A stretch of DNA of 42,764 nucleotides, from the IMG/VR virus record IMGVR_UViG_3300021964_006628, positions 1 through 42,764 of that record; one strand, written 5' to 3'. The position numbers were made by a program, and so were the translations under genes. The stretch is from a virus. The notes below the pieces were generated by a model, which saw only the letters and a list, made by a program, of their open reading frames with translations, was not told the origin of the DNA and did not search any database. Shown here in pieces: positions 19,706-38,846 of this stretch (its first letter is position 1; the number at the start of each line of letters is the position of its first letter).

Positions 19706-20354
19706 CTATTATATCCTCAGGACCGCGGCCGTCTAAATGTTCAACTGTTTGCGGGTAACCTAGTGGTCCGTATATAGCCCCTGTTAAACTTTTTACTCTT
19801 TTTAATCTTTGTTCTACGCCTAAAGAACCTTCTTCAATTTGTACGTATTGCAAAGCATTATGTATGTATATATCTCTTTTTATTATATGAGGATTATTAC
19901 TAAGAAAAGGAGTAACACAATAATTAATATTAGCAAAACGTTCTTGTAATCTTTTATCTAAAAACATTGATTCATTAGTTCTTTTATTAAATCTTAAATG
20001 TACTAAATTTTCTTCTTCTATAACATTACAGATTTCAGTAAGAGAATGCGTTAGAGTAGGAAGAAATTTCCAATCATGTTCTAGCATAAACAAAAAATCG
20101 CTTGTAGAACTTTTTACTGCTTGCACATAACCGTCACTTAACGATGTAGTAATGTTAACTGTATTAAAAATATTTGTTAAGTTATGTAAATATTCTTCTG
20201 CTTGTTCTGTATTTGGTTTAGGATCATACCAAACAGTTACTTTACCATCATAGTTAAATTTGTCTACAAAACTATTATATGTTTCAGTAATAATATCAAC
20301 TGACGGTGCATATTGGGTTGCATTAGTAAAAATATGTAATTCTATATTTGTCAT
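19698..20354 (-). CDS. Glycosyltransferase-like protein (GT-A fold, 218 aa)
   Basis: N-terminal MTNIELHIFTNATQYAPSVD fits the first strand of a GT-A fold. The core TSDFLFMLEHDWKFLPTLTH (about 83-102) has EHD in place of DxD, as in some GT2-like enzymes. The C-terminus contains GAIYGPLGYPQTVEHLDGRG. This is assigned by pattern and context only. It overlaps the FkbM gene by 4 nt and the DUF579-like gene by 8 nt. Confidence 0.55.
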   Translation of the reverse strand: MTNIELHIFTNATQYAPSVDIITETYNSFVDKFNYDGKVTVWYDPKPNTEQAEEYLHNLTNIFNTVNITTSLSDGYVQAVKSSTSDFLFMLEHDWKFLPTLTHSLTEICNVIEEENLVHLRFNKRTNESMFLDKRLQERFANINYCVTPFLSNNPHIIKRDIYIHNALQYVQIEEGSLGVEQRLKRVKSLTGAIYGPLGYPQTVEHLDGRGPEDIIDD

Positions 20355-20980
20355 TTTATAAAAATTATATTATACTGTTCTGGATATTCCTGATCTCTAG
20401 CAAGCAAAGTAAAGCCTTTATTTTGTAAAAAATCTATAACAATAGTATCTAGTTGTTGGTCCTTCCAAAACTCTTTTGATTCTACTTCAATAAAAATTAT
20501 TTTTGTATTTGTTAATACGTTGGCGCTTTTTTCTAATATTTCAAAACCGTGGCCTTCTGCGTCTATCCATAGTGCAAAACTTCCTTTAGAGTCATGAAAC
20601 ATATTATCTAAAGTGTCGCATTTAACTGTAACTTCTTCGTATATAGTTTTTTCATCATTGCGTTTTAACAAAGAATTATTACCTCTTACATACTTTGTTT
20701 TTTTTGGATCGCGTTTTGTTTGTAAATAAAAAGTAGTATTACCTGTATAATTTGAAACTGCTTGATGAATGTATTGTAAATTGTTTTTACTTACAGCATA
20801 TTTTGCATAATTATAAGGATTAGCTTCGTATGCAAAAACTTTTGTATCTGGTAGTTGTTCAGAAATGTATATAGACTGTTCACCGGTGTACGCACCAATT
20901 TCTAAAAAATAATTAGGAGCAATATCTAAAACAGAATTGTTAAATAATTCAACTAGCTCTTTGTTAGATAAAATATCCAT
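20351..20980 (-). CDS. FkbM-family methyltransferase (209 aa)
   Basis: YFLEIGAYTGEQSIYISEQL (motif I, about 19-38), TKVFAYEANPYNYAKY (motif II with acidic Glu), QAVSNYTGNTTFYLQ, VKCDTLDNMFHDSKGSFALW and IDAEGHGFEILEKSANVL are all diagnostic of FkbM methyltransferases, which O-methylate sugars or polyketides. The I-D-x-E-G-x-E/G-x-x-x-L block is nearly canonical. Co-transcribed with a sulfotransferase 4 nt upstream and a GT gene downstream. Substrate unknown; a surface sugar is likely. Confidence 0.88.
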   Translation of the reverse strand: MDILSNKELVELFNNSVLDIAPNYFLEIGAYTGEQSIYISEQLPDTKVFAYEANPYNYAKYAVSKNNLQYIHQAVSNYTGNTTFYLQTKRDPKKTKYVRGNNSLLKRNDEKTIYEEVTVKCDTLDNMFHDSKGSFALWIDAEGHGFEILEKSANVLTNTKIIFIEVESKEFWKDQQLDTIVIDFLQNKGFTLLARDQEYPEQYNIIFIK

Positions 20981-20984
20981 ACTA

Positions 20985-21626
20985 TCAAAACGTATATTTA
21001 AAAACGTCTATATCCTCTTCGTACAATGACTGTATTAGCTTTTTAGATTTATCTGAATATAAAGATTTCCAATCTAACTTGGAGTTTTCTGATAAATGTC
21101 TATGAGGTAAATTATCTATTTGTAAATGCTTTATGTCTTGATCTAAATTTTCAAATTTTATTATTAAATCAAAATCTCCTCCTTTTAGCCAGTGCGACTG
21201 GTTAAATGCAAGAGAAAACCAAGTATGGTCCCATGGTTTATTAAAATACTTTTGCAACCATGGGTCAAATCCGTCACACATTATGTCGTATTCAGTTTGT
21301 ATAGTTTCGTAGTCGTCAATTAAAAGACGAAACTTTTTTCCTATACTAAGTTTTTTTATACCGTCTTGGAGAATACGCTTTCTAAAAAAGTAATAACTAG
21401 TAGCCCTATTCCAAGGATTTCGAACAATAGAAAATTTATAGTAATGTTTTAAATCTCCAATGTGCTCTACACAATCCAAATATGTACTATGCCAATTATT
21501 GTTGTTGGTTCTGTTGTTAGGAATTTGGCAAACATTATTTGCTGTTTTAATTGCATCTATAATACTTGCGCCAGCCGTTTTAGGAATGTGAACAAATAAA
21601 AGTTTGTCTTTAACAAAAACACTCAC
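20985..21626 (-). CDS. Sulfotransferase family 2-like protein (213 aa)
   Basis: Begins with KDKLLFVHIPKTAGASIIDA: HIPKTAG.S is the 5'-phosphosulfate-binding loop for PAPS. FSIVRNPWNRATSYYFFRKR (about 64-83) is the 3'-phosphate-binding motif (RNPxxR). SLAFNQSHWL and DLIIKFENLDQDIKHL complete the family pattern. It would add sulfate from PAPS to a glycan hydroxyl. The phage must rely on host PAPS. ATGA overlap with the methyltransferase gene downstream of uvsY. A second sulfotransferase-like gene is at 27383-28009. Confidence 0.87.
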   Translation of the reverse strand: MSVFVKDKLLFVHIPKTAGASIIDAIKTANNVCQIPNNRTNNNNWHSTYLDCVEHIGDLKHYYKFSIVRNPWNRATSYYFFRKRILQDGIKKLSIGKKFRLLIDDYETIQTEYDIMCDGFDPWLQKYFNKPWDHTWFSLAFNQSHWLKGGDFDLIIKFENLDQDIKHLQIDNLPHRHLSENSKLDWKSLYSDKSKKLIQSLYEEDIDVFKYTF

Positions 21627-22213
21627 AGCGTTTCCATTAATGATAAAATTTCTTTGTTCTTACTCCTAGTTTTTGTAATTATAAATGAAGGGTATTTTTC
21701 TTTTGTAACTACTGTTAGGAAGTAATTATTTTCTGCAACAAAATCATTAACAGACTCTACTACACCCCAATCAGATCGTTTTTTCCATGCTGGCCTGTAA
21801 TCGTGACCTAAGATCATTCCGTTGTCTTTAACTAGAGATTTTACTGCTTGCAAGTCTTTCATGCACCCGTCATATGTATGATCGCCGTCTACATATACCC
21901 AGTCTAAAGTTTTTTCTGCACAATAGTTTGGTAAGTTGTAGGTAAGATCTCTAATAAATGTTACAGGCTTCCCTAAAAACTCTTTTTGTATATCTTCAAA
22001 TCTTTTATCCCAATCATTTTGATCTGTATAATATTTTCCCTGAATGTTTGTTGCAATGGGTCCCCATAGATCAACACAGTATAAAAAACTTGGATTTGCT
22101 ACTTTAAGTATTTCTTTGCTGAATACTCCTCTACCTACACCCAGTTCAGCACATACGCTATTAGCTGGCATTAGTTTAAGTAGGTCTTCGCGTTTTACAT
22201 TAAATTGAGGCAT
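21623..22213 (-). CDS. Class I SAM methyltransferase (196 aa)
   Basis: Motif I is VCAELGVGRGVFSKEILK (about 19-36) and CVDLWGPI is the acidic strand-2 region. DWVYVDGDHTYDGCMKDL (about 110-127) and MILGHDYRPAW are the same blocks as in the 5154-5648 product. It belongs to the Methyltransf_24-like set and is the first gene of the glycan cassette. It overlaps uvsY by 14 nt, so the glycan genes appear to be read from the recombination operon. Confidence 0.8.
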   Translation of the reverse strand: MPQFNVKREDLLKLMPANSVCAELGVGRGVFSKEILKVANPSFLYCVDLWGPIATNIQGKYYTDQNDWDKRFEDIQKEFLGKPVTFIRDLTYNLPNYCAEKTLDWVYVDGDHTYDGCMKDLQAVKSLVKDNGMILGHDYRPAWKKRSDWGVVESVNDFVAENNYFLTVVTKEKYPSFIITKTRSKNKEILSLMETL

Positions 22214-22655
22214 CTTCCATTCCTGCTACTCTTAATTTCACAACATTGGTTATTTGCCATTGTTTTTGATCAAGACCTTTTAGTAGTCCTAACCACTTGT
22301 TACGCATAAGTGCAAATTCATTAATAATTTTTTCGTAGTCAACTACGTCTGATTCACCGTCAACATATTTTTCTACGTCACGACTTGATAAAGCTCGTTG
22401 GTAGTTTTCAAGATATTTTTTAAAATATGAGCTACGCAATCTACGTAGCTCAATATTAAGATAGTTTAGAATTGCTTCAATTTCTTGAAGTTGATTAAAA
22501 CGATGTTCGACTATACCGGGCATTTCTGATGCAGCCTTTTCTACATTTCCATACAGTTTAACTTCTTGCCTTGCTTCTACTAGTTCGGCTTCAAAGTGTG
22601 CAACTGCATTAGGAATTCTAGAAATATCTCTCGATACTTCGCTATACCATCCCAT
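22200..22655 (-). CDS. uvsY: UvsY recombination mediator
   Basis: 151 aa, similar in size to T4 UvsY (137). The pattern WYSEVSRDISRIPNAVAHFE, VEHRFNQLQEIEAILNYL and RRLRSSYFKKYLENYQRALS is the conserved helical core of UvsY-type proteins in marine T4-like phages. UvsY loads UvsX onto gp32-coated single-stranded DNA. All three partners (UvsX, UvsY, gp32) are in one operon here. The ATG overlaps the preceding stop (TAATG) and has GAGG upstream. Confidence 0.85.
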   Translation of the reverse strand: MGWYSEVSRDISRIPNAVAHFEAELVEARQEVKLYGNVEKAASEMPGIVEHRFNQLQEIEAILNYLNIELRRLRSSYFKKYLENYQRALSSRDVEKYVDGESDVVDYEKIINEFALMRNKWLGLLKGLDQKQWQITNVVKLRVAGMEDASI

Positions 22656-22885
22656 TAATAATCCTCGTCATATTCATCTTCGTCAATTTCTGAGTCCATA
22701 TCTAAATAATACATTATAGCATGATCAAGTAATGCATCATTGCCTATACAAGATTCTAATATTTGATCACTAACACCGTAGTCTACAAGTAAGTCAACAA
22801 AGTTTTCTGATGCTATAGTACCTTGCTTCTTGTCAATGTAATTTTTAAATAAATTCCAAATATCAACAATTTGACTTTCGTCCAT
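22655..22885 (-). CDS. Small acidic protein between uvsX and uvsY (76 aa)
   Basis: 76 aa beginning MDESQIVDIWNLFKNYIDKK, with the C-terminus a run of Asp/Glu (EIDEDEYDEDY). I recall a similar small acidic gene between uvsX and uvsY in marine T4-like phages. Function unknown; an acidic tail like this often binds basic protein surfaces, such as gp32 or recombinase partners (inference). GAGGAA lies upstream of the ATG. It shares a base with the uvsY start. Confidence 0.7.
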   Translation of the reverse strand: MDESQIVDIWNLFKNYIDKKQGTIASENFVDLLVDYGVSDQILESCIGNDALLDHAIMYYLDMDSEIDEDEYDEDY

Positions 22886-22888
22886 TAA

Positions 22889-23974
22889 TTATTCCTCAAT
22901 TGGTTGTTCTACTTCTAGGGCATCCTCTTCGTCTGCCATATCGATATTTACCTCATTGAGTAATTTCTGTTCGTAATCAGACATAACTGTATCGAGTAAT
23001 TCGCCAGTCCACTTCTTACGATAATCTAGTAGTTCTTCGCCTTTGCTTGTTACGTATTTGAGTCTATTACCACTCTTTTCAATAACACCCTTTGCTTCAA
23101 ACAATTCTACTAGACCACTGTAAGGATTCATTCCTGTCTCGTATGGAATCTTAACCTGTACACCCTCGAACGGTTTTGCATAACGTGTCTTCATAACTTT
23201 ACAGCCAGCACGGATACCCATAACTTGACTGATCTTGTTACCATCTTCGTCTTCTTTGAGCTTTAACTTCTTCATTGCTACAACTATGCTAGAAGCGTAT
23301 ATAAAGCCCTGTCCGCCACTTATTTTATCATCTGGATCAAACATATCCTGTGAAGCATAAGTATGGTTTGTACATACTAGTCCTACGTTATGAGACCCAA
23401 ACATATTTACTGAGTTACGTACAAGTGCTGTTAGTGCCTTAGGCTTACGACCCATATCACCTTTCATATCACCCTTGTTAAACTGATCAACATCTGTTGG
23501 TGTTAATAGCATACCTAGTGAATCAACTACAAACAATACTTTAGGACGTTCCTCCTCAGCCATTTCTTTGTAGTCTGCCATAAACGTACTAATAGTCTTT
23601 GCTACATCGTCAATCATTGACATATTAAGTTTTAGTAGTTTATCTTCTGATGTATCAACATCAAGTGCGTGTAGCCAGGCTTCGTCAAGTGCATTCTCTG
23701 AGTCAATAAGAACTACAAAGATACCTTGTTGCTGTGCTTCTTTTACAATATTACCAGCACAGATATAACTTTTACCTGCACCAGATTCTCCAGCAAACAC
23801 TGTTACCTTGCCTAGCGGTACACCTCTATTGAAGTCTCCACTAATAAGGTAGTTAAGTGCAAAGTTGCCAGTACTAATCCAGTCTGTAGGATCGTTAAAT
23901 CCTGCACTCATACCTGAAATAGACTTTGTCAAAGAATTTCTAAACTTTGACGGATCGAATGATTTTGTTGCCAT
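22889..23974 (-). CDS. uvsX: UvsX RecA-like recombinase
   Basis: 361 aa. VFAGESGAGKSYI (Walker A, about 59-71), VVLIDSENALDEAW (87-100, RecA strand with catalytic Glu) and KVLFVVDSLGMLL (Walker B, about 145-157), then NHTYASQDMFDPDDKISGGQ (L2/DNA-binding area). UvsX forms filaments on single-stranded DNA and drives strand exchange. Length is near T4 UvsX (391), with an acidic C-terminus (DEEDALEVEQPIEE). A good AGGAG ribosome binding site lies upstream, directly after the structured leader at 23999-24065. Confidence 0.95.
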   Translation of the reverse strand: MATKSFDPSKFRNSLTKSISGMSAGFNDPTDWISTGNFALNYLISGDFNRGVPLGKVTVFAGESGAGKSYICAGNIVKEAQQQGIFVVLIDSENALDEAWLHALDVDTSEDKLLKLNMSMIDDVAKTISTFMADYKEMAEEERPKVLFVVDSLGMLLTPTDVDQFNKGDMKGDMGRKPKALTALVRNSVNMFGSHNVGLVCTNHTYASQDMFDPDDKISGGQGFIYASSIVVAMKKLKLKEDEDGNKISQVMGIRAGCKVMKTRYAKPFEGVQVKIPYETGMNPYSGLVELFEAKGVIEKSGNRLKYVTSKGEELLDYRKKWTGELLDTVMSDYEQKLLNEVNIDMADEEDALEVEQPIEE

Positions 23975-23998
23975 TTTATTCTCCTATCTGAAATAGCG

Positions 23999-24065
23999 CC
24001 TCTACTAGCGTTTGGAGTGTTGACAGGTAAACCATGAATCTCTGCTCCGGTTTAACTAGTAGAGG
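23999..24065 (-). promoter_or_regulatory. Structured RNA, possible pseudoknot, between gp32 and uvsX
   Basis: A 10-bp perfect stem pairs 24065-24056 with 24008-23999 on the minus strand (CCTCTACTAG/CTAGTAGAGG). Inside, TAAACC (24054-24049) pairs with GGTTTA (24033-24028). GGAG (24048-24045) in that loop can pair with CTCC (24017-24014) outside it, which would form a pseudoknot. It ends 24 bp before the uvsX ATG and has no T run, so it is not a simple terminator. It could be a gp32-binding operator, an RNase processing site or a ligand-sensing leader. I recognise no known riboswitch. Confidence 0.6.
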
Positions 24066-24073
24066 TTATTTGT

Positions 24074-25057
24074 TTATTGTCCTTGACGTGCTCTGATCAT
24101 TTTAAGAATGTCATTTGCATCACCACCGCCCGAAGCTGGTGCTTCTTCTGCTACTGGAGCAGTTGCCGGTGCTTCTTCTGCTACTGGAGCAGTTGCTGTC
24201 TCAGGTGCTGGTGTAGCCGCTGGTGCAGGAGTCGATGCTGTTGGAGCAACCGGATCGCCTGTACGTTGTGCCATGCCTGCTGGACGGAAGTATTGACCAA
24301 ATCTATCCATGTCATATGCTTCACCATCTACTGATGCTTCAAACATTTCCTTAATAACCTTAACTGCCAATTCATCTGGCTTTTTAGGAAGGAAATCACC
24401 CATATTAAACAAGCCGTGTGTATTAACAGCAGCCATTTCTTCATCACTAAGTGGACGTTCTCTACGAGCCCAGTTAGATGTTGAATAGTCTGCATAACCA
24501 CCTTTCGTAGTTTTGTTTAATCTAAAGTCTACACCTGCTGTGTAATCTGTTGGCATTTCTTCCATATCAGGGTCCATTAGTGCAGCCTTGATAATTTGGA
24601 AAATTTGCGGACCAATAATAAATCTACGGATTGGATTCTCTGGAGTAGTGTCCTCTGCTAGTGGATTATCAGTTACAAAGCCTTGGAAAATGTACGAACG
24701 CTTTTTCCAGTATTTTCGACCCATATCTTCTAATGAAGGGTCCTTAAACCAAGGACGTACTTCACTTAGTACTGGACAAGTTTCACCATACATTTCCATA
24801 CATGGTACTTGCACTTGTACTGGACGTGAGTCAGTTTGTCCTTTCACACCAGCAAACGGTAGTTTGATCATCAAACGTTCTTGCCAGAAGAAAGTATTAT
24901 TTTCATCTCCATCAGGAAGGAAACGTAGAGTTGAACTCTCGCCTTCTTTCATATTCCAAAATGGATAAATTGCGTTGTCCCCGCCGGAGCTTTGAGAACC
25001 ACCTGTGCGTGATTCTTGTTCTTTCAGTTTTGCTCTGATTTCTGCTAAAGATGCCAT
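24074..25057 (-). CDS. 32: gp32-like single-stranded DNA-binding protein
   Basis: 327 aa, near T4 gp32 (301). N-terminal basic segment ASLAEIRAKLKEQES resembles the LAST-type self-interaction region. The core has YPFWNMKEGESSTLRFLPDG and MEMYGETCPVLSEV with part of the zinc-type Cys set. The C-terminal tail is Ala/Pro/Glu rich and ends GGGDANDILKMIRARQGQ, a flexible tail for binding partners. The tail contains a DNA-level duplication (24138-24197). GGAGG is 8 nt before the ATG. Driven by the overlapped early/late promoter at 25136-25164. Essential for replication, recombination and repair. Confidence 0.93.
   Translation of the reverse strand: MASLAEIRAKLKEQESRTGGSQSSGGDNAIYPFWNMKEGESSTLRFLPDGDENNTFFWQERLMIKLPFAGVKGQTDSRPVQVQVPCMEMYGETCPVLSEVRPWFKDPSLEDMGRKYWKKRSYIFQGFVTDNPLAEDTTPENPIRRFIIGPQIFQIIKAALMDPDMEEMPTDYTAGVDFRLNKTTKGGYADYSTSNWARRERPLSDEEMAAVNTHGLFNMGDFLPKKPDELAVKVIKEMFEASVDGEAYDMDRFGQYFRPAGMAQRTGDPVAPTASTPAPAATPAPETATAPVAEEAPATAPVAEEAPASGGGDANDILKMIRARQGQ
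24138..24197 (-). repeat. 30-bp direct repeat in gp32 C-terminal tail
   Basis: Two near-identical 30-bp copies in tandem (24138-24167 and 24168-24197) encode a repeated TAPVAEEAPA decapeptide. The second copy differs at its last base. Probably slippage expansion in a flexible linker. Confidence 0.85.
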
Positions 25058-25089
25058 AGTTATGCCTCCTAATTGTTATGCCTATGTGC

Positions 25090-25107
25090 AGTAGCATTAT
25101 TGCTACT
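25090..25107 (-). promoter_or_regulatory. Hairpin in gp32 leader
   Basis: AGTAGCA and TGCTACT form a 7-bp perfect stem with a 4-nt loop in the 5' leader of gp32 mRNA, about 34 nt before the ATG. T4 gp32 represses its own translation through leader structure; this could be the equivalent site. Confidence 0.5.
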
Positions 25108-25126
25108 AGTGCCTTTAAAGTTTAGC

Positions 25127-25145
25127 ACACTATTAATTATAGTGT
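25127..25145. promoter_or_regulatory. Palindrome over the gp32 -10 box
   Basis: ACACTAT-TAATT-ATAGTGT, a perfect 7-bp inverted repeat overlapping the TATAAT -10 box. The same core (ACACTATAAT...AGTGT) covers the -10 of gene 1 (38865-38883), so a common operator is possible. Confidence 0.5.
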
Positions 25146-25164
25146 CTAGTATTTATAAAGTCAA
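25136..25164 (-). promoter_or_regulatory. Sigma70-type promoter of gp32
   Basis: Minus strand TTGACT (25164-25159), 17 nt, TATAAT (25141-25136). The late-promoter element TATAAATA at 25157-25150 lies inside the spacer. Confidence 0.8.
25150..25157 (-). promoter_or_regulatory. T4-type late promoter of gp32, inside the early promoter spacer
   Basis: A perfect TATAAATA followed by CTAG, the T4 late consensus. Transcripts from it would begin about 85 nt before the gp32 ATG. It cannot be bound at the same time as the sigma70 promoter, so early and late use are alternatives. Confidence 0.7.
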
Positions 25165-25188
25165 GTGTTTTTTTTGACTTTTTTTGAA

Positions 25189-27363
25189 TTAACGTAAACC
25201 TGCTAATTCTTTTATTCTATCAAACTCAGAATCTGTTTCCATTTGCTGTGGATTTTGTACCATATCAAATGCTTCGCAAGTTTGGTAGACTTTTTCAATG
25301 AACTGCTTTGCAGGTTCAATGAACTTGTCGCCATAGTCTTTTTCAACCATGGTTAATACTGCTGTTTCACCTTTTGGGAACTCGCCTGTTTCTTTATCAA
25401 AGTGGCTTAGTATAAATTCGCCTAATGGTGTCTTTTTGTCTTTTTCTAGTGTAATCTCGTCGCCGTCTGGGCCTTGTATCTTGTCGCCTTTTTTCTTGCC
25501 ATCTTTTTTGGCTTGACGTACAGCGTTAGCATATGCATTGCCTTCGTCCATATTATCAAGTACTAGTTCTATATAACCTTGAACTACTTCATCTCTGTCA
25601 TCGTCCATGTGTAAGTTATGGTCTCTACCATACTCGCTCATTTCCTGATCAAGTTCTTCCTCGCTCATGCCCATTGCTTTTGCTAGTGCTGGTTCTCCAC
25701 CTTTTTCATATGCTGACATAAATTCGTCTGCCATCATATCTGCTTTGCTTGGCTCTGCCTGTGGATCAAAACTTTCATCTTCGTAGTCCTTTGCAATTCC
25801 AGTGTCATTACATTCTTCGCAGCCGGTGCCTTTACATGATTGGCAATGGTGCTCTTCGCCGTCACCTTCGTCCATTGATTCGTCTGCTGACGCATCTGCT
25901 ACACCCATTCCTTTATGGAACCAGGATTCTAATTCTGCTTGTAGTTCTTCTGGGTCTTCAGTATCAAAGTATGTGAAGTCGTCAGCAACTACTTTAGTCT
26001 TTCCTTCTGGAGATGTAATAGTGAGTTTATGTTTTGCATAACCATTTTCTTCACCGTTATATTCTAATGTATAACTGTATTCACCTGCACCTTCGGCAAA
26101 CTGACCCATCATTTCTTCAAAACCTTTTTCTAGTTCTTCGTCATAAACAGATTCTTGAACTTTACCGGAGCCCCCACAAGTACCACATACTTCTTTTCCA
26201 TGCGAGCAAGTTCCTCTGCCACCGTTACAACATGGACAATCTGATTCTTTTATTGTTGCTTCATACATTCCCTTGCCGCCGCATTCTGGACAAGATTCGT
26301 CACAGGAGCAAGGTGTATCACCGCAGCAAGAGCACTTTTTATCTTCGCCTTCGTAAACAGTATAGCCTTCTAAATCTAAAGGACCTAATTCTGTCGCTCT
26401 TGTATTTTCACTTACTAACTTATAAATGTACGGAAATACATCTTTTAATTCTTCGTTAAACTGACGTATAGTTAATTCATCAATCCAATTTTCAGCAACA
26501 TCACTTGGTACTTCTTCTAGTACTGGTGCTTCAAAAGAATCAATAGTTTCTGCATAAAAAGACTTTTTCTGGAGAGATTCGATTGTCTTTTTAACAGTAG
26601 CAACTCTTTCTTTAACTACGTCCATATAATCAGTAAGACCTTCTGCCATTACTGCCGAACGTCCCATGTAACTTTTAAACTTACGTAACTTTGAAAGTTC
26701 TTCTGATAATCCAATAATATGTTTACCAAAATCATCGTGCGGAATACCGCCTTCTGCTACGTGACGAGCCATTGCTCTTGCACCTGCTATATGTTTATAA
26801 GGATACTTAAACCTTTCGCCTTGTGCGTTATCAACAAAGATAGAACCAATTTTTTGTGTCCTGCCTGTTGGAATTTCTGAATTAACACTTTCTGTGTGTT
26901 TAATTACTAGTCTTGCGTTATCTATATCTTGATAACTTACACGGCTTGTTCCGTATAACTTTGACTCATTCATGTTGTTCTCTCCGGATTTATTCTTTGC
27001 TAAAAACTTGTAATCTCTTTTGTTTAAATTTGATTTAGTTATATCTCTGGTATTAAAATTTAGTAATCTTTTTTTAGAAAAAGTTCTTAATTCTTTTAAA
27101 AAATCATACCAGGTGTTTCTAGTTTTATTGTCTTCATTAGCAACTAAATCGTTACTGTATAATACTGTAACACCTTTGTCTTCATCTATACTAACACTTA
27201 CTGAGCCTAAATCTATGCCACCTGTTTTAAACTTAAAATCAAAAAATCTAGACGCCGTTGGGATATTTGTTACATTCCCTTCTTCATCGCCTATTGTAAT
27301 ATTAGGAAATCGACCCCTAATTTTATTAAAAAGCTCTTCGGCTATTTTATCTAAGTTTTTCAT
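25189..27363 (-). CDS. Late protein with DnaJ-like zinc-finger repeats (724 aa)
   Basis: A 724-aa acidic protein. Residues about 344-400 are packed with Cys: KCSCCGDTPCSC, then CPECGGKG, CPCCNGGRG and CGTCGGSG. A second cluster at about 507-521 has CQSCKGTG and CEECNDTG. These are the CxxCxGxG repeats of the DnaJ central zinc-binding domain, but there is no J domain (no HPD) and no usual DnaJ C-terminus. The N-terminus is MKNLDKIAEELFNKIRGRFP. The start is ATG 27363, 5 nt after a late core with no Shine-Dalgarno; the 34 upstream codons overlap the sulfotransferase. Possibly virion- or assembly-related. Function not known. Confidence 0.75.
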   Translation of the reverse strand: MKNLDKIAEELFNKIRGRFPNITIGDEEGNVTNIPTASRFFDFKFKTGGIDLGSVSVSIDEDKGVTVLYSNDLVANEDNKTRNTWYDFLKELRTFSKKRLLNFNTRDITKSNLNKRDYKFLAKNKSGENNMNESKLYGTSRVSYQDIDNARLVIKHTESVNSEIPTGRTQKIGSIFVDNAQGERFKYPYKHIAGARAMARHVAEGGIPHDDFGKHIIGLSEELSKLRKFKSYMGRSAVMAEGLTDYMDVVKERVATVKKTIESLQKKSFYAETIDSFEAPVLEEVPSDVAENWIDELTIRQFNEELKDVFPYIYKLVSENTRATELGPLDLEGYTVYEGEDKKCSCCGDTPCSCDESCPECGGKGMYEATIKESDCPCCNGGRGTCSHGKEVCGTCGGSGKVQESVYDEELEKGFEEMMGQFAEGAGEYSYTLEYNGEENGYAKHKLTITSPEGKTKVVADDFTYFDTEDPEELQAELESWFHKGMGVADASADESMDEGDGEEHHCQSCKGTGCEECNDTGIAKDYEDESFDPQAEPSKADMMADEFMSAYEKGGEPALAKAMGMSEEELDQEMSEYGRDHNLHMDDDRDEVVQGYIELVLDNMDEGNAYANAVRQAKKDGKKKGDKIQGPDGDEITLEKDKKTPLGEFILSHFDKETGEFPKGETAVLTMVEKDYGDKFIEPAKQFIEKVYQTCEAFDMVQNPQQMETDSEFDRIKELAGLR

Positions 27364-27368
27364 ATTAG

Positions 27369-27375
27369 TATTTAT
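27369..27375 (-). promoter_or_regulatory. T4-type late promoter of the DnaJ-like zinc-finger gene
   Basis: GATAAATACTAAT directly before ATG 27363 (core TAAATA, 5-nt gap). Matches the T4 extended late consensus almost throughout; no Shine-Dalgarno follows. Confidence 0.75.
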
Positions 27376-27382
27376 CAATAAA

Positions 27383-28009
27383 TCATTTACGTAAGTATTT
27401 AGTATACATGGTAAGGTAACCCTTTGCACGATGAATGCGCTTCCATAGATAAAAATCCAATTCATATAGTTCTTTTACAACTTGGTCTAACAATGCTTGA
27501 TCAACATCTGGTCCTTCTATAGGGGTTTCTTGGTGTTCTCCGCAAACGCGATGAACACAGTCAATTTTTGCTGGTATATCTTGCAGGAACTGTTGGAGTG
27601 GACTTCCGGCATTTTTAAGTCCAAAATTATCTTCTAGTGTATATAGATGTAACGTACTAGGTGTTGGTACATTATGTAAAAACCAATGCTGTGTTTCTAA
27701 ATGACAATCGTATTCTTTCGGATTGTGTAATAATCTCGATAGTTCTAAATTAATATCTGTAATTTTATTTTTAATAAGTTTGTTATGTGTAAGTAGCCCT
27801 CTTAATACTCTGGTATAAGGATTGCGTATAACAGTAAACCAATTACCTGTTTGATTAGGAACATCACTTTTAGTGTTTTCGCTGGTAAAACCGAGTCTTA
27901 AATTAGTACTGCCAGTTTTTGGTATGCTTATATAATTATATACTGTATCCAAATATTGTGTACTATATAGACACCGTTGATAGTTTTGCAGATTACTTAT
28001 AGGCTTCAT
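27383..28009 (-). CDS. Sulfotransferase-like protein beside the terminase gene (208 aa)
   Basis: YNYISIPKTGSTNLRLGF (about 25-42) holds the P-loop-like PKTGSTN segment that binds the 5'-phosphosulfate of PAPS. WFTVIRNPYTRVLRGLL (58-74) is the 3'-phosphate-binding RNPxTR motif. The rest is less conserved. It is therefore a sulfotransferase-type fold, unrelated in detail to 20985-21626. It follows terminase without a gap, so it is probably late-expressed. Sulfation of a virion or host-surface glycan is the obvious guess; a purely structural role is also possible. Confidence 0.8.
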   Translation of the reverse strand: MKPISNLQNYQRCLYSTQYLDTVYNYISIPKTGSTNLRLGFTSENTKSDVPNQTGNWFTVIRNPYTRVLRGLLTHNKLIKNKITDINLELSRLLHNPKEYDCHLETQHWFLHNVPTPSTLHLYTLEDNFGLKNAGSPLQQFLQDIPAKIDCVHRVCGEHQETPIEGPDVDQALLDQVVKELYELDFYLWKRIHRAKGYLTMYTKYLRK

Positions 28010-29590
28010 TTAATAACTGCTGCTAACAAAGATTGGCATGGGTGCTTCGTACTCGTCCTCTGATTCTGCTTGCGTAAAGGTATCATATATTCTAGGATCC
28101 CAGTCTTTTAATACTGACATCATTCTAAGTGCAAGTAACGTTGCACTTACTAAATCATCAGGCTGACCGGCTTTTGCCCTAAAACTAGATCCTGTTGCAA
28201 CAAAGTTTTTTAGTTCTGATATCAACGGCTTTGAATGCACAGTCATTTTACTGTTTTCTATCATGGTTTTTAATCTACTACAGGCAGTTATTTTTGTGCC
28301 GTGTGTAGTGTTAAATCCTTTGCGAAACTTTCTTACGTGTCCTTTTCGAATAGGTTCAGAAACAAATAGTCCTGGTATATTCTCTTCCCCAAAATCGTTT
28401 ATAACGATTAATGCTGCTTCGCCTATAGAATTATTTTCTATGCTCCAATATATTCCTTGCGGATTTTCTGTTTCACTTTCTATGTATTTACAGATGTCTG
28501 CAAGTACTCTAATTTGTCCGGGTATTGCTGTTTGATTATGTTGCCATTCTGCTACTTGTTCATACGATGGTAATTCATAAACTTGAATTGCAGCATTATC
28601 CCCTCCGGTACCCATACTAGGATCAACTGCTACTGCATATGTATATTGACTTGTCGGTTTTTTATACCAACGAGTTTGTCCCATATTCAGTATCGGTTTT
28701 TTGCCCTCCATTTGAGCTAAGTGTATTGCTGATATAAGAGTTTCGTCAAATACCAAAAACTCACAGCCGTATTCTCTTCTAAATCGTTCTTCACCAATAC
28801 GCCCAATTTCTGCTTCTTTCCATTCTTCGTCTCTATCAGGATGTTCTTGCCATTCTGCTACAAAACTGTGAAAGCCATTTACCCCTAGTTCTTGTTCATT
28901 ACCGTGTGCATCAAACTTTTCTTCTGCTTGTTTCCAAATATTAGCAAACGTATCTTCATCTGAGTTAGGCGTACTAGTAATAATAGCACGACCACCTGTT
29001 GCCAGTGTAGGCGATATTGAAGTCCAAAATTCGTCTGCAATATTAGGTTGCACAAACGCAAACTCGTCACAGTACAATAATGATATGGACATACCACGTC
29101 CTGTATTGCCTGTTGTTGTAGCACTAACAATACGCGAACCGTTTTCAAATTCAATAGAGCCTTTGTTATAGTTTGTAACACCTGCTCTAATATGATCTGG
29201 GCATAGTTCGTACACATATCGTATACGTTGCATAATTTCTTGAGCACCTGTGTATTTGTGTGCCGCAATTAGTATAGTTTGATCAGGTACAAACATTGCA
29301 TACCATGCAAGGTATATTGCCGCACAAGTAGTTTTACCTGTTTGTCTAGGCATCATGTTTATATTAAAACGATAGCTGTGATATGAGTGCATCAAACGTA
29401 ACTGATACTCATAAGGATCAAACAAAAGTTTACCTTTTACAGGGTGTTGTATGTAAGCAAACTTACGTGCAAAATACAAGTAACCGTCATCAGGGTCCAT
29501 ACATTTTGCTAGATCTTCAATCTGCGCATTTGTATAAGTTTCTTTTGTATTGGCTTTTTTTGTTAAAACGCCGTCAAGTGATTTGCTCAT
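28010..29590 (-). CDS. 17: Terminase large subunit (gp17)
   Basis: 526 aa. ATPase motor: PRQTGKTT (about 81-88, Walker A) and SLLYCDEFAFV (about 170-180, Walker B with catalytic Glu). TSTPNSDEDT (206-215) is the coupling motif region. The nuclease domain has YAVAVDPSMGTGGDNAA (about 318-333) with the first metal Asp, and WSIENNSIGEAAL further on. It cuts concatemeric DNA and drives it into the prohead. The ATG is 4 nt after a late-promoter core (TAAATA), without a ribosome binding site. Confidence 0.96.
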   Translation of the reverse strand: MSKSLDGVLTKKANTKETYTNAQIEDLAKCMDPDDGYLYFARKFAYIQHPVKGKLLFDPYEYQLRLMHSYHSYRFNINMMPRQTGKTTCAAIYLAWYAMFVPDQTILIAAHKYTGAQEIMQRIRYVYELCPDHIRAGVTNYNKGSIEFENGSRIVSATTTGNTGRGMSISLLYCDEFAFVQPNIADEFWTSISPTLATGGRAIITSTPNSDEDTFANIWKQAEEKFDAHGNEQELGVNGFHSFVAEWQEHPDRDEEWKEAEIGRIGEERFRREYGCEFLVFDETLISAIHLAQMEGKKPILNMGQTRWYKKPTSQYTYAVAVDPSMGTGGDNAAIQVYELPSYEQVAEWQHNQTAIPGQIRVLADICKYIESETENPQGIYWSIENNSIGEAALIVINDFGEENIPGLFVSEPIRKGHVRKFRKGFNTTHGTKITACSRLKTMIENSKMTVHSKPLISELKNFVATGSSFRAKAGQPDDLVSATLLALRMMSVLKDWDPRIYDTFTQAESEDEYEAPMPIFVSSSY

Positions 29591-29594
29591 ACTG

Positions 29595-29601
29595 TATTTA
29601 A
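29595..29601 (-). promoter_or_regulatory. T4-type late promoter of gp17
   Basis: TTAAATA followed by CAGT and ATG 29590. It overlaps the TAA stop of the upstream gene (AGT TAA ATA). Match to the late consensus is slightly weaker at the first base. Confidence 0.6.
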
Positions 29602-29936
29602 CTTATTAAATCGTCGTAGTATCCTGTATCGAACCTTAAATCAAACAGTTTTCGCCTATCTTGCTGTATAAGTATAGGAACTGGAGAAGCATAATCACCG
29701 TGTGTAGGTTCGCTCCATAACCATTCGTACTGTTCGCTTACATCAACTTTTTTACAAAGTTTTTTAAGACGTCTACGATTGTATCCTTTGCATATGTATA
29801 TAATAGCCTGATTGTTACCTAGTTCTTCTATTTTGCCGTTCCAAGATCTTACTTTTATTTCGCCCTTTTTCCATGCCGCTCCGCTCCACGGACACACAGG
29901 CTTTATGTGTTCAAAATACTTGGTCCAATCTGTCAT
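29598..29936 (-). CDS. Conserved hypothetical phage protein upstream of gp17 (112 aa)
   Basis: TDWTKYFEHIKPVCPWSGAA, then KKGEIKVRSWNG, and a basic helix YNRRRLKKLCKKVD, ending FDTGYYDDLIS. I recall a similar small protein upstream of gp17 in marine T4-like phages. It could be a packaging accessory, given the basic segment and location (inference). Starts 5 nt after a late-promoter core with no ribosome binding site, and is separated from the upstream gene by a terminator. Confidence 0.7.
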   Translation of the reverse strand: MTDWTKYFEHIKPVCPWSGAAWKKGEIKVRSWNGKIEELGNNQAIIYICKGYNRRRLKKLCKKVDVSEQYEWLWSEPTHGDYASPVPILIQQDRRKLFDLRFDTGYYDDLIS

Positions 29937-29941
29937 AAAAG

Positions 29942-29948
29942 TATTTAC
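29942..29948 (-). promoter_or_regulatory. T4-type late promoter for 29598-29936
   Basis: GTAAATACTTTT then ATG 29936; 5-nt gap. The first consensus bases are weaker, but the spacing fits the other late starts. Confidence 0.6.
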
Positions 29949-29955
29949 AGAAAAA

Positions 29956-29977
29956 AATAGGCTCCTAAGAGCCTATT
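29956..29977 (-). terminator. Rho-independent terminator after 30002-30658
   Basis: AATAGGCTC-(4 nt)-GAGCCTATT, a perfect 9-bp stem, followed on the minus strand by a T run. Ends the gp19-to-30002 late transcripts just before the next late promoter. Confidence 0.85.
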
Positions 29978-29981
29978 TGAA

Positions 29982-30000
29982 TTTACTAAAGTTTAGTAAA
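29982..30000. repeat. Perfect inverted repeat next to the terminator
   Basis: TTTACTAAA-G-TTTAGTAAA lies 4 bp from the terminator stem and just after the stop of 30002-30658. It may be a second stem of the same terminator or a protein site. Confidence 0.6.
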
Positions 30001-37954: not shown

Positions 37955-38290
37955 ATGAGACCTTTGTGTAAATGTAAACAGCGTCCTGCCGCAATTAACT
38001 ATTATAAAAACGGCAAAACGTACTATAGAAAATTATGTGAAGTATGTTTAAAGTATGGCAAACCGGTTGGAATGCCTAGATGGAAACAAGCGGGTTATGC
38101 AAAAAAGGATACCTGCGAAAAATGCGGATTTAAATCAAAGCACTCTGAACAGTTTAATGTATTCCATATTGACGGTGTATTAACAAATTGTAGACACACC
38201 AATCTAAAAACTATATGTGCTAACTGCCAGCGACTTTTGCAAAAGGAAGGTTCTCGTTGGAAACAAGGAGATCTACTACCTGATTTCTAA
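37955..38290 (+). CDS. Zinc-binding HNH/endonuclease VII-like protein (111 aa), plus-strand island
   Basis: Cysteine sets at CKCKQRP (5-11), CEVC (28-31), CEKCGF (54-59) and ICANCQ (87-92). FNVFHIDGVLTNCRHTNLKT (about 68-87) matches the ββα-metal HNH layout (H-x-D-G...N...N-L). I recognise it from marine T4-like phages. A small zinc-dependent nuclease in the EndoVII style is plausible, but the short size leaves this open. The last 71 bp overlap gene 1 on the opposite strand. Directly preceded by a late box and no ribosome binding site. Confidence 0.75.
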   Translation: MRPLCKCKQRPAAINYYKNGKTYYRKLCEVCLKYGKPVGMPRWKQAGYAKKDTCEKCGFKSKHSEQFNVFHIDGVLTNCRHTNLKTICANCQRLLQKEGSRWKQGDLLPDF

Positions 38291-38846
38291 GTTCAGTTAC
38301 TGTTTCATTATTATCTATAATTTGATCAAATGAAGTTCTACCCCACGCCCATTCTGAGCTATGTATGTCTGCAGGCTCAACAGCACTAATTCTATAGTCT
38401 ACGAACCAGCCCGGTAGTTTGCCTCTACGCACCCACCAAACATTGCCGCTAAGTTCTTGAATCATTTTAATTTCGTTAGGAAAACGTGTATCAGGAATAA
38501 CAAAGTTTGTTGTAGGATTATCTAATATTCTCTTTTTAACTAGACTTACCCATATGCCGTCGTAAAATCCTGCTCGCATACATTCGGTTCCAAACTCTTG
38601 TAGTACAAGTCGAGGTGTAATATCTCTGCCTGTTTCTTTAGTCCAGAATGTGTCTAGTTGTTCTCGCCATTCTCTTGATTCGTTAGTATCGCCTTCGACC
38701 ATATCTCTTGGCCAATCAAACATTTCTGCAACAGCATCTTTCAGTTTGTCAGCAAATGATAGTTTTACAAATCCGTGCTCTGCTACAAGCATATCCGCTA
38801 CTGTGCCTTTGCCGCTGCCTATTAGACCACATACACCAATAATCAT
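38220..38846 (-). CDS. 1: Deoxynucleoside monophosphate kinase (gp1-like)
   Basis: 208 aa. MIIGVCGLIGSGKGTVADML contains the P-loop (7-15). KLSFADKLKDAVAEMFDWPR (28-47) and FVIPDTRFPNEIKMIQEL are typical of T4 gp1 and related dNMP kinases, which phosphorylate dGMP, dTMP and (in T4) hydroxymethyl-dCMP for DNA synthesis. T4 gp1 is 241 aa. It has its own sigma70 promoter and a GGAG ribosome binding site that sits in a large inverted repeat (38853-38895). The 3' end overlaps the plus-strand HNH gene by 71 bp. Confidence 0.9.
   Translation of the reverse strand: MIIGVCGLIGSGKGTVADMLVAEHGFVKLSFADKLKDAVAEMFDWPRDMVEGDTNESREWREQLDTFWTKETGRDITPRLVLQEFGTECMRAGFYDGIWVSLVKKRILDNPTTNFVIPDTRFPNEIKMIQELSGNVWWVRRGKLPGWFVDYRISAVEPADIHSSEWAWGRTSFDQIIDNNETVTELRNQVVDLLVSNENLPFAKVAGS

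Follow-up and report, generated by a model that had tools for sequence, protein, structure and literature searches.

The gp32 gene of the window (the whole 42.8-kb stretch of viral DNA that was analysed) is probably served, together with uvsX and uvsY behind it, by a composite early/late promoter in which a T4-type late promoter is woven into the spacer of a sigma70 promoter; judged from the sequence and its conservation, this reading can be given a probability of roughly three in four. The minus strand reads TTGACT-TTATAAATACTAGACAC-TATAAT from 25164 to 25136, with the -35 hexamer TTGACT at 25159-25164 and the -10 hexamer TATAAT at 25136-25141. The two are separated by 17 nt, which agrees with the definition of a sigma70 promoter as a TTGACA-like -35 and a TATAAT-like -10 lying 16-18 nt apart, and with a score of 11/12 this is the best sigma70 match within positions 20000-30000. 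The spacer contains TATAAATA (25157-25150), i.e., the complete 8-bp T4-type late promoter, lying ahead of a gene on its coding strand; it is the sole occurrence in the whole window, against a chance expectation of 6.7. Both elements had been named in the original prediction, and both are found to be exact in the sequence and recurrent among relatives.

The gp32 start codon (ATG at 25057) lies 78 nt past the end of the -10 hexamer, with the Shine-Dalgarno sequence AGGAGG at 25065-25070 on the same minus strand. The gene itself (24074-25057, minus strand; phrog_1192, E 9e-64) encodes the single-stranded DNA-binding protein, an abundant replication protein, and is followed, likewise on the minus strand, by the genes for the uvsX recombinase (22889-23974; phrog_97, E 7e-69) and the uvsY recombination mediator (22200-22655; phrog_231, E 4e-16), which bears out the earlier claim that these two lie behind the gp32 promoter. 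Ahead of gp32 are terL and a virion structural gene (listed ORF 25189-27465, minus strand; phrog_13484), the true start of the latter probably lying about 100 nt inside the listed ORF.

From viral contigs, 80 related gp32 loci were gathered, yielding 65 distinct upstream regions; of the 80, the truncated L074 alone was unscorable. TTGAC[AT] is present in all 65 and TAnnnT at exactly 17 nt in 60, while a late core of the form [AC]TAA[AG]TA falls within the spacer in 43, where shuffling of the spacers yields 1.2 (at most 6 in 2000). The exact ATAAATA is found in 21 of the 65 spacers versus 0.6 in shuffled ones, the late form in the relatives often being CTAAATA or ATAAGTA instead. Further, in L052, L054 and L058 the core stays whole though it is displaced by 1-2 nt relative to TTGAC. 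By these measures, the weave of a late box into the sigma70 spacer is not a product of chance. About 20 of the 65 regions are devoid of the core (the count with it being 43-45), and on the gp32 tree it occurs on both sides of the midpoint root, with at least seven changes on supported branches; hence, it is not essential. The core was probably ancestral and often lost, and it is a useful yet dispensable companion of a sigma70 promoter that is retained throughout.

The late motif has a distribution of its own. In the 357-kb relative G001, 35 of 58 NATAAATA sites are located 8-60 nt upstream of same-strand starts, whereas the corresponding share for its single-base variants is 0-24%, the highest being CTAAATA with 21% and ATAAGTA with 24%. 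The related GATAAATA occurs 50 times on one strand versus six times on the other in four larger relatives (in G001 the favoured strand is the main gene strand). All five of its window sites belong to the minus strand, and three of them lie 18-24 nt upstream of the predicted starts of a structural gene, a tail tube gene and a head-tail adaptor gene. This positional pattern identifies NATAAATA as the late motif of these phages. The gp55 late sigma family has members in G001 and G002 (E 9e-24 and 2e-24) and in three more contigs (G005, G006 and G008); none was seen in the window record, which is a fragment. For the sliding clamp gp45, the activator of T4-type late promoters, the family phrog_223 gave no match in G001-G004, and the control likewise gave no match there. 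Finally, CTAAATA, the main late-core variant in the relatives' spacers, is the late promoter of Aeh1, unlike the window, which carries the T4-type TATAAATA (PMC1524935).

The arrangement suggests a simple course of events. As sigma70 transcripts start about 7 nt after the -10, the host sigma70 polymerase would use TTGACT-17-TATAAT early in infection and start near 25130 (predicted at 25128-25131, minus strand). Once a gp55-type sigma is made, the late polymerase would use the TATAAATA in the spacer and start near 25145 (predicted at 25144-25145, 5-6 nt past the box), given that T4 late transcripts start 6 nt after the late box, which spans -13 to -6 (PMC1524935). Because the two footprints overlap, only one polymerase form would be at the site at a time; this mutual exclusion is very likely on steric grounds, and gp32 would stay on throughout infection. 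The dual-promoter reading is well supported, since its elements are conserved, the late motif is genuine, gp55 is present in relatives and the weave recurs in cyanophages. From it we infer that both starts are used, that they differ in timing and that the two polymerases exclude each other. The earlier claim of two start sites about 15 bp apart stands insofar as motif spacing predicts a 15-nt offset, both starts themselves being predicted positions.

What had been overlooked in the original prediction, along with the core's repeated disappearance, which leaves about a third of the relatives without it, and the weave in cyanophages and at other genes, is an RNA hairpin, here termed H1: an inverted repeat extending over the -10 and the start region (e.g., GTGTAGTAT...GTGCTACAC). 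In the window it is a modest hairpin of 7 bp on the minus strand, whose 5' arm ACACTAT (25139-25145) runs from the predicted late start into the -10, and whose 3' arm ATAGTGT (25127-25133) contains the predicted sigma70 start. An arm-swap test in the relatives gave a mean duplex energy of -11.95 kcal/mol for a locus's own arms as opposed to -8.6 kcal/mol with another locus's arm, a difference reached in 0/10000 permutations. Mismatches in the main set are far more often G-U (134) than A-C (40), which marks the pairing of H1 as that of coding-strand RNA; for the cyanophages, the same comparison (28 G-U versus 24 A-C) does not decide. Further, H1 is placed with respect to the core: it begins 1-6 nt past it in most core-bearing loci of the main set and 3-6 nt past it in 38 of 41 cyanophage-type loci (0/5000 permutations), and across phylogenetically independent pairs, core presence and H1 position change jointly (median p 0.03).

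On account of the T4 rule that late transcripts start 6 nt past the box (PMC1524935), the late mRNA should begin with H1. Conversely, the sigma70 start falls at the 3' arm or loop, so the early mRNA should be unable to form the hairpin, and folds of the predicted leaders agree. Less certain is the further step that promoter choice sets leader structure, with early mRNA devoid of H1 and late or read-through mRNA carrying it. The likeliest role of H1 would be translational autoregulation of gp32 or protection of the 5' end. Taken together, it is tentatively proposed, with rather less than even confidence, that the interleaved promoters give rise to two gp32 mRNAs whose starts differ by about 15 nt, the complete 5' hairpin being confined to the late one and acting as a gp32 operator or a 5' shield, such that early mRNA would be freely translated and late mRNA controlled.

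The foremost competitor to this proposal is that H1 serves only the read-through RNA of the upstream structural operon, in processing or silencing, its alignment with the late start being a by-product. Relatives that have lost the core do retain a strong H1, in most of them with the 5' arm farther upstream, near +6, ahead of any near start. H1 in these relatives would hence be part of read-through RNA or act differently, and it is not tied to the late promoter alone. However, a by-product would not readily account for H1 starting just past the core in core-bearing loci and cyanophages, and in several relatives the promoter is preceded by terminator-like hairpins (a visual reading). The read-through explanation is thus somewhat doubtful, though it remains the strongest of the alternatives. 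A DNA operator, at which a repressor shuts off the sigma70 promoter while the late promoter is secondary, is improbable: the repeat does cover the -10 and the sigma70 start, a classic operator position, in both gp32 families, but its arms vary widely in sequence, length and spacing (22 distinct octamers at +20..+27) and the excess of G-U over A-C mismatches in the main set is not favoured by an operator.

Other potential structures lie close by. The element H2 consists of GTGC (25125-25128, minus strand), which could pair with GCAC (25112-25109), the latter being inside a conserved AGGCAC; H2 does form in folds of the relatives' sigma70-type leaders. It could be an alternative to H1 or a pseudoknot partner, as the second stem of an H-type fold. 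GTGC and GCAC are nearly invariant, and matched versus mismatched H2 arms do not differ significantly overall; seven loci show GTA-type exchanges on both sides (a visual reading). In a third element, H3 (25090-25051, minus strand), a conserved GCACATAGG pairs with CTATGGC across the gp32 start codon, which places the Shine-Dalgarno sequence in the loop; it is found in most folded leaders. Masking of the Shine-Dalgarno sequence was rejected as a difference between early and late leaders, as the computed accessibility hardly differs. Upstream of H1, a second inverted repeat, AAAGTCAA...TTGACTTT (25181-25157, minus strand), has its right arm on the -35, and repeats like it but of different sequence exist in L001, L044 and L056; covariation is weak (26/2000), and an upstream hairpin with its right arm on TTGACTTT (H0, e.g., in L001 and L044) is no more than a candidate.

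Returning to the composite promoter, its phyletic spread extends to cyanophages. A sigma70-type promoter is present in 85 of 103 distinct cyanophage-type upstream regions, and in 30 of these 85 its spacer holds the core; when the -10 is not required, TTGAC and the core are found together at 41 loci. The latter include two cultured cyanophages, P-SSM4 (TTGACA-cttGATAAATAgtatgg-TACGAT) and S-RIM2 (TTGACC-gcgACTAAATAgtatgc-TACGAT), both with a 17-nt spacer. The weave is absent at gp32 of KVP40, PA5oct, RaK2, GAP32, PBECO4, Munch, BF, CBB and XaC1, isolates outside the family of the window's relatives that include enterobacterial jumbo phages; PA5oct has a sigma70 promoter alone and the RaK2 group neither element in this form. 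At gp32 of Atu_ph07 (GATAAATA-8-GATAAT) and Phosso (TATAAATA-9-TACAAT), a late box stands beside a -10-like hexamer with no consensus -35.

The pattern is also not confined to gp32. In G001, five of 129 sigma70-like sites have the core in the spacer, where about 0.4 would be expected from its genome-wide density; they belong to gp32, folE, two sites upstream of tRNA arrays and one small gene. A search for the composite pattern in 12 contigs recovered 13 distinct sites, versus two for the reversed pattern. Upstream of folE, the GTP cyclohydrolase gene, in other phages (L268-L347), the core is present in 23 of the 28 sigma70-type promoters found, the pattern in many of them being TTGAC-N4..6-CTAAATA-N-TAnnnT. 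These sequence matches suggest that cyanophages and giant T4-like phages share one module at gp32 and that G001 has it at folE as well. They also bear on the supposition that only the sigma70 promoter is functional, with the TATAAATA in its spacer an A+T-rich accident or a spacer-DNA effect. This would be in line with the greater conservation of the sigma70 elements (65 versus 43-45 of 65 relatives) and with the absence of the core from a third of the relatives. Against it stand the 43 cores where shuffled spacers yield 1.2, the roughly 0.4 expected for the five of 129 sites in G001, and the return of the same core in cyanophages and at folE, which together make it a poor account of the data. 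Equally hard to favour is a dedicated middle promoter, at which one modified polymerase would require both elements. Similar TTGAC-N3..7-[AC]TAAATA-N-TAnnnT arrangements at gp32, at folE and near tRNA arrays would agree with this, as would the putative middle promoter reported for P-SSM4 and Syn9 (PMC2984593); however, the distance from TTGAC to the core differs by several nucleotides among loci, and the core is lost in places while the sigma70 elements persist.

A few further features of these genomes were noted in passing. The two tRNA-array composites of G001 (L112:4333 and L112:12737, i.e., G001 284333 and 292737, minus strand) are followed by two large tRNA arrays, with 24 tRNA genes in 20 kb. 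At 12-24 kb of G001 (L098, L099), a run of small genes has near-identical early promoters of the form TGGTTGACA-16-TATAAT-like, several of whose spacers look dyad-symmetric (e.g., ACACGAGTccaaACTCGTGT), an impression that is statistically weak; as a rule for early promoters such symmetry did not hold up (4.12 versus 3.70 in G001, with nothing clear elsewhere). A hairpin as a general sigma70-promoter trait was likewise set aside, the two strongest of 78 in G001 being the folE and gp32 composites. In the window, the promoter of a dNMP-kinase gene (38220-38846) is inside a long imperfect dyad around its -10 (38900-38850, minus strand), CTCCAC..TTACACTA-TAA-TAGTGTAA..GTGGAG, with AATAAATA about 45 nt upstream.

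Among known systems, a close parallel is that of RB49, S-PM2 and Syn9, T4-like phages that lack motA, whose middle mode has been proposed to consist of early and late promoters that overlap, with early sigma70 and late NATAAATA promoters sharing the same replication genes. The review in question also mentions Q-PCR results that conflict and, for P-SSM4 and Syn9, a putative middle promoter (PMC2984593). At gp32 of the window, both promoter types likewise stand on one replication gene. The MotA and AsiA families gave no match in G001-G004, where the control gave none either. The idea of overlapping early and late promoters is already known in outline, and the putative gp32 composite fits that class. 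What differs from the systems as reviewed is the position of the late box, inside the 17-nt sigma70 spacer and with conserved geometry, and the alignment of a covarying RNA hairpin to the predicted late start. The apparently new elements are this spacer geometry and the covarying hairpin, with its 5' arm running from the predicted late start and overlapping the -10; neither is described in the review (PMC2984593) or in the other papers compared.

The second point of comparison is T4 gene 32, the mRNA of which has an autoregulatory leader pseudoknot (PMC3014915). The gene is the same and so is the general layout, a structured 5' part of the leader, set off by a linker from the ribosome site (PMC3014915), and in the present gp32 leaders the conserved paired element is the covarying H1. 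In T4, however, the TATAAATA precedes the pseudoknot, at about 150 nt before the start codon, with no sigma70 promoter interwoven; a further difference is that an Rfam search of the phage gp32 leader studied here returned nothing at gathering level. As the T4 pseudoknot autoregulates (PMC3014915), autoregulation is the natural hypothesis for H1, and a kinship between the two, binding and repression by gp32 included, is suggested as a hypothesis by this analogy.

Late transcription of T4 gene e, soc and I-TevI begins at a point that leaves the 5' half of an inhibitory hairpin out of the mRNA (PMC3014915), and there as here promoter choice decides whether the mRNA has both hairpin arms. The two cases are mirror images: in T4 the late mRNA is devoid of the hairpin, whereas here the early mRNA is predicted to be; the alternative in which H1 serves only read-through RNA has likewise been likened to gene e in mirror image. 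For T4-like phages lacking motA, it is an open question how the middle genes are run (PMC2984593), and a 29-bp promoter whose two readings would differ by one RNA hairpin, and which is present in the cultured P-SSM4 and S-RIM2, has a direct bearing on it. If the proposal is true, the logic of gene e would have a mirror image here, and structured gp32 leaders would come in a second form.
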